From contig WGCQ01000068.1 in assembly GCA_015493765.1 (NCBI GenBank), positions 1 to 32,089 on the forward strand: DNA of 32,089 bases. Reading direction: 5' to 3'. This document shows, piece by piece, positions 1,545 through 32,089 of the stretch (positions are counted from its first letter, which is position 1; every line of letters starts with the position of its first letter). The translations under genes and the position numbers were made by a program. The notes beneath the pieces are model-generated. The model saw only the letters and a program-made list of their open reading frames with translations. It was not told the origin of the DNA and did no database searches. This stretch comes from Deltaproteobacteria bacterium (GTDB lineage Bacteria > Myxococcota_A > UBA9042 > DTJE01 > S145-11).

Positions 1545-1853
1545 CCCAAATCACCTGTCAAATTATCTGTCAAATTTGAGGACAATGGTCGCTGAAAGTG
1601 GTTCAAATGCAATGAGTTGAGCCCATTTGAGCGGAGGCGTGCCAAGGGTGTTGATTTGATGGATTTAGTGACGAATTCGGAAATTCGTATGTTTTGTAAT
1701 AGTTTGAAATACAAAGATAATCCAAGATACCGGCTGGAAGCCGGCGCTCCCAGGAAGGACATTTTCAACAACATTGTACTGACACAGGCGAAAACCACGA
1801 AGCAGACGGACCGCTTGCTGCAACCGACTGCCGAATTCAGGCAGGTAATTTGG
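1545..1853 (+). mobile_element. MITE-like repeat element, copy 1
   Basis: The element is bounded by CCCAAATCACCTG (1545-1557) and CAGGTAATTTGG (1842-1853), which are inverted copies of the 13-base end seen perfectly in copy 2. Inside the left end is a small duplication, then the palindrome TCAAATTTGA, then blocks shared with the other copies: GAAAGTGGTTCA, GAGTTGAGCCC, GAGCGGAGGCGT, and near the right end CAGACGGACCGCTTGCTG and CCGACTGCCGAATTCA. It encodes no transposase and no convincing protein. A GGCTGGAAGCCGGC-type palindrome sits in its right half. It fills the gap between two divergent genes, and a promoter abuts each end. I see no clear target-site duplication. Confidence 0.6.
1730..1753 (+). 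repeat. Palindromic GGCTGGAAGCCGGC-type repeat, copy B
   Basis: CCGGCT / AGCCGG stem with a GGA loop followed by CGCTCCCAGGA, matching copy A (128-152) at all but a few bases. It lies inside element copy 1 and is absent from copy 2, so it looks like a nested insertion or replacement. Confidence 0.6.
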
Positions 1854-8679: not shown

Positions 8680-8702
8680 CCCTGGAATCGCTGGCTTCCA
8701 GA
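8680..8702 (-). repeat. Palindromic GGCTGGAAGCC-type repeat, diverged copy C
   Basis: On the minus strand this reads TCTGGAAGCCAGCGATTCC, a diverged form of the repeats at 128-152 and 1730-1753. It lies between the end of the kinase gene and element copy 3. Confidence 0.4.
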
Positions 8703-8748: not shown

Positions 8749-8834
8749 CTATACGAATCATGCACGGTCTTCTTCCCCACCACCCCACACAAACGGGTCC
8801 GACTTTGGCCCTGACGACTGGCACAAGAGGTCGA

Positions 8835-9049
8835 TGAATTCGGCAGTCGGGCACCGCAAGCGGCCCATCTACTTTGTCGTTTGCACCTGTGTATGCTCAA
8901 CGTAGCGCTGTGGGTCATTGCGTCAAAGGCGCAATGAATTAAAGCATCCACGGATGCGCAGAACCACGCCTGCGCTCAAACAGGCTTAACTCCTGGTATC
9001 TGAACCACTTGCCGCACCCTTTGTCCTCAAATTTGTCCGGTAATTTGGG
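8835..9049 (-). repeat. MITE-like repeat element, copy 3 (one end lost)
   Basis: Read on the minus strand it starts CCCAAATTACCGG at 9049-9037 (one mismatch to the 13-base end), then ACAAATTTGAGGACAA, CAAGTGGTTCAGATACC, GGAGTTAAGCCTGTTTGAGCGCA in pieces shared with copies 2 and 4, then GAGCATACACAG, ACGACAAAGTAGATGG and CCGACTGCCGAATTCA shared with copies 1 and 2. Homology stops at 8835 and no right inverted end is found, so this copy is truncated or fused to other sequence. The 8615-8834 part holds hairpins and GC-rich repeats and no gene. Confidence 0.55.
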
Positions 9050-15547: not shown

Positions 15548-15834
15548 CCCAAATTACCTGTCAAATTTGAGGACAAGGTGCAGAAAGTGGTTCAGATACG
15601 TGGAGTTAAGCCTGTTTTCTGCGTACCTACACGGCTGATAGAGTGAGCGCAGGCGTACTAACGGGTACGTCGAGCATACACAGAAGCGACCAAGGGGAGC
15701 GTGACCGTAGCATTGCGAAGCACACGCACGACAAAGCAGATGGACCGCTTGCTGTGCCTTGTCCAAGGCCGCAGGCTCGTGACAACGAGCCGTCAGGCGA
15801 AGTTTCACCGCTGAGTTTAGTCAGGTAATTTGGG
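15548..15834 (+). mobile_element. MITE-like repeat element, copy 2 (reference copy)
   Basis: This 287-base copy has perfect 13-base inverted ends: CCCAAATTACCTG (15548-15560) and CAGGTAATTTGGG (15822-15834). Next to the left end is the perfect palindrome TCAAATTTGA, then GGACAAGG, AGAAAGTGGTTCAGATACG and GGAGTTAAGCC. Further in are GAGCGCAGGCGT, GTCGAGCATACACAG and ACGACAAAGCAGATGGACC, all found in at least one other copy. No ORF of interest and no target duplication is seen. It starts at the first base after the stop codon of the upstream gene and separates it from the convergent dnaA gene. Confidence 0.65.
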
Positions 15835-31926: not shown

Positions 31927-32008
31927 CCCGAATTACCTGTCAAATTTGAGAACAAAGTATGCCGAAAGTGGTTCATGTACGCGGAGTTAAGCCCATTTGA
32001 GCGCATAC
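31927..32008 (+). repeat. MITE-like repeat element, copy 4 (left part)
   Basis: Begins CCCGAATTACCTG (31927-31939, one mismatch to the family end), then TCAAATTTGAGAACAA, CGAAAGTGGTTCATGTACG and GGAGTTAAGCCC, then TTTGAGCGCA. After about 32008 it turns into CGGCCA-type repeats like those at the left edge and then AT-rich sequence to the window end; no gene is seen there. Whether the right end exists beyond the window cannot be told. A second GTGAAAGTGGCTCG near 32070 may be a fragment. Confidence 0.5.
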
Positions 32009-32089
32009 GGCCACGGCCACGGAGACTGTCTCATGGTTCGTCAAATAAACATATATGGATATCTAATGCCAGTGAAAGTGGCTCGTAAG

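Follow-up and report, generated by a model that had tools for sequence, protein, structure and literature searches.

Bacterial MITEs such as Correia/NEMIS, Nezha and Chunjie are moved in trans by an IS transposase, and a known MITE family generally depends on a single IS and is limited to a few related hosts. A repeat of the Bacillus cereus group, bcr1, is reportedly a mobile intergenic element of ~150 bp that conserves an RNA fold and has duplications of 5 bp (Kristoffersen et al. 2011, as cited in PMC4853749). REP sequences are 20-40 bp palindromes with a GTAG or CGTC tag at one end (PMC3733652), and the IS1634 family is characterised by C-----YT ends together with duplications of 5-6 bp (PMC2266710).

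Here we describe a family of repeats that resembles several of these systems in part. Like the bacterial MITEs named above, the repeats are short, non-coding, high-copy and intergenic, with terminal inverted repeats and target duplications; unlike known MITEs, they show one RNA core across phyla, combined with varied terminal repeats and, in all likelihood, varied transposases. They share with bcr1 a mobile intergenic character, a conserved RNA fold and 5-bp duplications, but bcr1 is limited to one Firmicutes group. As with REP sequences, they are high-copy intergenic hairpins, yet most of them are 160-310 bp long and have terminal inverted repeats and target duplications; in size and ends they do not fit the REP/RAYT group, and terminal repeats with duplications also speak against membership of the integron attC sites. 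We conclude that the repeats are likely non-autonomous, MITE-like DNA transposons that carry a conserved structured RNA of unknown role. The recurrence of their central hairpin in similar high-copy repeats of several unrelated phyla suggests that this is probably a widespread transposon-borne RNA.

Results

Four copies in the window

The window, by which we mean the whole 32,089-nucleotide stretch of DNA analysed, is an entire contig (C68) and holds four copies of the repeat. Copy 3 (15548-15834, + strand) is complete at 287 bp, with 13-bp terminal repeats that are perfect at both ends; it matches our model R1 with 161 bits (E=5e-38) and folds with an energy of -117.1 kcal/mol (z -5.96). Its core hairpin, GCGCAGGCGTAC...GTACGTCGAGCA, lies at 15637-15685 (+ strand) and matches model R2 with 40.9 bits (E=1.4e-7). 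Copy 2 runs on the - strand from its left end CCCAAATTACCGG at 9049 down to about 8838, its right terminal repeat being gone; model R1 matches 8784-9049 (119 bits), and model R2 matches the core hairpin at 8885-8985 (- strand; 33.1 bits, E=1.7e-5), which has additional hairpins within its loop. Copy 4 (31927-32089, + strand) consists of the left end CCCGAATTACCTG and the left half, truncated by the contig end, so that model R1 matches only over model positions 1-110 (53 bits, 3′ cut).

Copy 1 (1545-1854, + strand) has the ends CCCAAATCACCTG / CAGGTAATTTGGT, with one mismatch apiece, and matches model R1 at 1557-1854 (101 bits). Flank comparison gives a putative target duplication, the unstranded AGAA at 1541-1544 on the left and 1855-1858 on the right; 4 bp alone is weak evidence. 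The interior of this copy is disrupted by a nested, degenerate repeat of a second family (1644-1775, + strand), placed by a left-end match at 1644 and with an approximate right border. This second family is ~130 bp long, with ends GAGGGTGTTGATTTGATG / CAACACCCTC and 40 end matches in the 798 kb sampled; GAGG-type sequence is often found at its flanks. Apart from the match at 1644 it has one at 8701 in the window, and others elsewhere (L031-L070).

The sequence-only reading had claimed four copies with 13-base inverted ends, none of them encoding a transposase. These claims hold: all four copies were found, with small corrections to their ends; the terminal inverted repeats are ~13 bp long; and the mechanical ORFs across the copies are short, with no protein encoded. 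Its further claim that all copies are strictly intergenic is nearly, not absolutely, true. The elements are mostly between genes, but one copy in the genome interrupts a transposase ORF (below), and of the 51 copies sampled, 10 share >40 bp with a crude ORF call.

Copy number and anatomy of the family

The family is abundant in this genome (3.57 Mb in 279 contigs, 96.75% complete). Its ~13-bp terminal inverted repeats, CCCAAATTACCTG, recur genome-wide, far more often than by chance: the 25-base end pattern CCCAAATTACCTGNCNAAATTNGRG, with ≤2 mismatches allowed, has 315 matches, against none for the reversed pattern. When copy 3 was used as a BLASTN query, 75 matches were obtained in 40 scored regions, drawn from 459 first-look candidates, and the genome contains 94 core hairpins.

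We surveyed the elements in 798 kb, made up of 40 stretches and the window. The lengths between paired terminal repeats cluster at ~160-180, 213-228 and 250-310 bp. The two main element forms differ by a 46-nt right-hand module, further variants have extra hairpins in or next to the central hairpin, and core-less derivatives of 37-120 bp lack the RNA core and retain mainly the ends.

Several other features of these regions were observed. End-to-end pairs of 0.4-3.5 kb are also present, none with a duplication >2 bp. Tandem copies spaced ~5 bp apart, with end matches separated by 182-184 bp, occur in L027, in L046:11583-12491 and on contigs C37, C88, C104, C200 and C232. Short tandem repeats of CCGTGG/CCGTGA type (e.g. 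GGCCGTGACCGTGGCC) lie near several copies (L013, L025, L231 and others). In three further genomes (G014, G020 and G055) many contigs start or stop within a copy; the repeats therefore appear to break metagenome assemblies.

Evidence for transposition

Target duplications in this genome are 5-6 bp long. Among 51 elements bounded by terminal repeats, seven have exactly identical 5-mers at their two flanks, against 0.33 expected and a maximum of 3 in 2000 shuffles; of the 20 perfect-ended copies, nine have a duplication of 4-7 bp. A clean insertion is seen in a 178-bp copy (L232:594-771, on contig C192) that splits a DDE transposase ORF (229-771 region) and duplicates ATATA. Once the element and one ATATA are removed, the frame of this ORF is uninterrupted. 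Carriage of the family among relatives is patchy, with 17 of 52 genomes in the class, varying within genera, and 30 of 379 in the phylum.

The number of copies, their ends, the target duplications and the interrupted gene are thus directly established, and together with the patchy carriage they identify a transposable element without its own transposase. Three of the four criteria for a MITE (terminal inverted repeats, target duplication, and no own transposase with many copies) are fulfilled; the fourth, an autonomous partner with matching ends, applies in two other genomes but was not found in this one (below). The earlier suggestion of a non-autonomous transposon is supported on all these grounds, and its proposed comparison of flanks was positive, the 5-bp duplications being significant.

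Candidate transposases

A search for a transposase gene bounded by the same ends, also proposed in the earlier reading, found no such gene in this genome, and no complete transposon with the family ends was found there. The genome has one IS1634-family transposase gene (L233:937-2280, on contig C12), truncated by the contig end. The family ends, CCCAAATT, and the 5-6 bp duplications fit the IS1634 signature. However, it has not been shown that this gene and the repeats share ends: for the family ends CCCAAATTACC...GGTAATTTGGG, the nearest CCCAAATTACC lies ~530 bp upstream, and the contig stops within the gene. We infer that the mobiliser here is probably an IS1634-family enzyme. Towards its C-terminal part the encoded protein has a ParB-like HTH segment, and its relatives in two other genomes (G032 and G042) have open frames of ~740-750 aa. 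Two other transposases, those of L234 and L231 (IS1182-like), were rejected as mobilisers, having no matching end pair.

In two other genomes the repeats resemble IS1380. In a member of the Bryobacterales (G054) and a Gammaproteobacterium (G055), the repeat ends match those of resident IS1380 elements (CCYGCATTTCTCACCA and CCCGSAWATCTCACCGAT), and repeats and IS1380 have identical 4-bp YTAR target duplications. The mobiliser in the Bryobacterales and in this one Gammaproteobacterium would thus probably be an IS1380-family enzyme. In contrast, the genome studied here has duplications of 5-6 bp, and its sequence, complete to 96.75%, gave no match to the IS1380 transposase (PF13701); IS1380 was rejected as the mobiliser in this genome because it has no IS1380 transposase gene.

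A conserved fold within the element

A first MAFFT alignment analysed with RNAalifold showed almost no structure, because of the variable modules; we therefore set a structure by hand on a cleaned seed alignment. This structure has 62 pairs on 16 copies, and 15 of these pairs are changed on both sides. Its covariation score is 0.154, compared with 0.114 for shuffled alignments (0 of 500 as high), and slid versions, in which relatedness is kept, reach no more than 0.049. The main helices also agree with the minimum-energy fold of a single copy. Compensatory change among copies is therefore established for these helices.

The strands are not equivalent. The fold energy of the + strand is -106.3 kcal/mol (z -9.0) and that of the - strand is -81.6 kcal/mol (z -4.75). 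In the internal helices G-U pairs outnumber A-C pairs by 306 to 56, a ratio inflated because alignments fitted to a model lean towards the structure, and at five internal pairs G-U is the commonest pair on the + strand. From the strand gap in fold energy and the G-U pairs on the + strand, we conclude that the RNA sense is the + strand, as first drawn. On this strand, the terminal repeats are predicted to form a long closing stem, followed by a second stem and then by an apical hairpin whose internal loop is fixed in sequence.

These results modify the earlier view that the copies differ more inside than at the left end, as if that end were under selection. This is incomplete, as both ends are conserved; much of the interior variability is compensatory change in RNA helices, and most of the divergent interior of copy 1 is accounted for by the nested second-family repeat that starts near 1644.

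The core hairpin in other phyla

The apical hairpin has the form GC-GCA-GG(stem)(stem)YC-GA-GC-A, that is, GCGCAGG-stem-YCGAGCA. Five bases in or beside its internal loop (C, A, G, A and G; columns 12, 15, 95, 96 and 97 of alignment A6) are invariant in 40 of 40 copies from this genome. The stem, in contrast, shows compensatory change: among 48 distinct sequences the closing pair of the core is C-G in 27 but G-C in 12.

The exact pattern GCAGGCGTACN{3,8}GTACGTCGAGCA occurs in at least 113 stretches of GTDB contigs; by our own estimate from base counts, fewer than one would be expected by chance. The carriers include Bryobacterales and other Acidobacteriota, Gammaproteobacteria (among them a Coxiellaceae MAG), Oxalobacteraceae and Herbaspirillum (Betaproteobacteria), Hydrogenedentota, Desulfobulbus and Desulfobulbaceae, Geobacter, Myxococcales and others. 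In these stretches the core sits in hairpins of similar size that are bounded by terminal repeats and have unrelated arms, with a few single or chance-like exceptions; a match in Nocardioides (L153), which lies inside a gene, looks like chance and was rejected. Copies matching the core model range from one to 150, the ceiling of the search, per genome, two Bryobacterales genomes being at or near that upper figure. Among cultured carriers, Acanthopleuribacter pedis KCTC 12899 has about 10 copies and Geobacter sp. OR-1 has three. A set of 19 Bryobacterales copies has a common fold of 64 pairs; most substitutions in it leave the bases paired, chiefly as G-U.

The core is thus common to several phyla with different terminal repeats. 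Because the search used the exact core pattern, the identity of the core across phyla is partly a product of selecting for it; less biased evidence for conservation of the loop is the covarying set from this genome and its same-class relatives. Taken together, these results make it likely that the interior of the element is a conserved, strand-specific RNA found in different transposon shells across phyla.

None of the repeats scores above the threshold of an Rfam family; the only hit was to a tRNA at a separate position of one locus. Viral contigs do not contain the core pattern, and a query with one gammaproteobacterial copy, the only one used, gave no match in plasmids or phages. Neither the core sequence nor a description of such elements was found in the open-access literature searched, subscription papers being outside its scope.

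Discussion

The proposed mechanism has several steps, most of them inferred. A DDE transposase acting in trans would recognise the terminal inverted repeats and insert the element with a short target duplication. The RNA would be made probably through read-through from neighbouring genes; there are no expression data. The fixed internal loop would bind a widely conserved protein, and binding would either make insertions tolerable or help movement. The core may itself be dispensable for movement, since derivatives of 37-120 bp without it keep the ends. Given that the elements use their ends to move and that some derivatives lack the core, a conserved RNA partner is the simplest account of a loop that stays fixed across phyla. 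As the role of this partner we place tolerance or spread first and host regulation second; neither has been shown.

A host-serving role is the alternative that survives best, and it remains possible. The RNA core would regulate or stabilise, the transposon would be partly domesticated, and copies upstream of promoters or between genes would have been kept for the benefit of the host. In favour of this, the gene to the right is co-directional with the element in 34 of 44 copies, compared with ~59% expected from gap lengths, and several copies sit a short distance upstream of sequences that resemble promoters. However, the orientation bias is modest and based on crude ORF calls, the distribution is patchy even inside one genus, and many copies are decayed or nested, as parasites would be.

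Alternatively, the repeats could be plain MITEs, in which folding merely follows from the inverted ends and from shared ancestry and no RNA is under selection. Folding comes easily to MITEs, their terminal repeats necessarily pair, and apparent covariation can arise among related copies. We consider this unlikely: the covariation affects internal helices at a distance from the ends, and it exceeds that of slid controls that keep relatedness, the loop bases are invariant while the stem varies, and the core recurs inside unrelated stems in other phyla.

A third explanation is that the structure acts as single-stranded DNA: hairpins extruded in replication would be the targets of a recombinase or of a Y1/HUH-type transposase, as happens in the IS200/IS605, REP-RAYT and integron attC systems. 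The long hairpins with a sequence-fixed apical region would suit such a system, in which G-T pairs on one strand could be tolerated as well. But terminal inverted repeats and duplications are typical of DDE transposition and not of IS200/IS605 or attC, the ends match IS1380 in two other genomes, and the large strand gap in RNA fold energy points to RNA; this explanation, too, is improbable. Finally, the idea that the repeats are remnants of a decayed gene, which the sequence-only reading had named as a possible refutation, is all but excluded: nothing was found in its favour, and the conserved helices, the precise ends with duplications, the insertion into another gene and the shortness of the mechanical ORFs across copies all speak against it.

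Our preferred reading thus remains that of a MITE-like transposon carrying a conserved RNA. In a bolder version of it, the apical hairpin would act as a module of RNA bound to a protein common to many phyla, and MITEs whose transposases belong to unrelated families would have carried it on repeated occasions, its binding being part of their spread or tolerance; the repeats would then form a cross-phylum class of RNA-bearing mobile elements. We hold this version only tentatively, and lean slightly against it.

Bacterial MITEs are usually viewed as decayed copies of one IS. Conservation of the interior across phyla, with ends that change, suggests that the folded RNA is the persisting lineage and that it switches transposases. 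If this is true, the repeats represent a new family of RNAs that number in the hundreds in a single genome, which would give a direct means of searching for the protein that binds it and would explain many broken contigs in metagenome assemblies.
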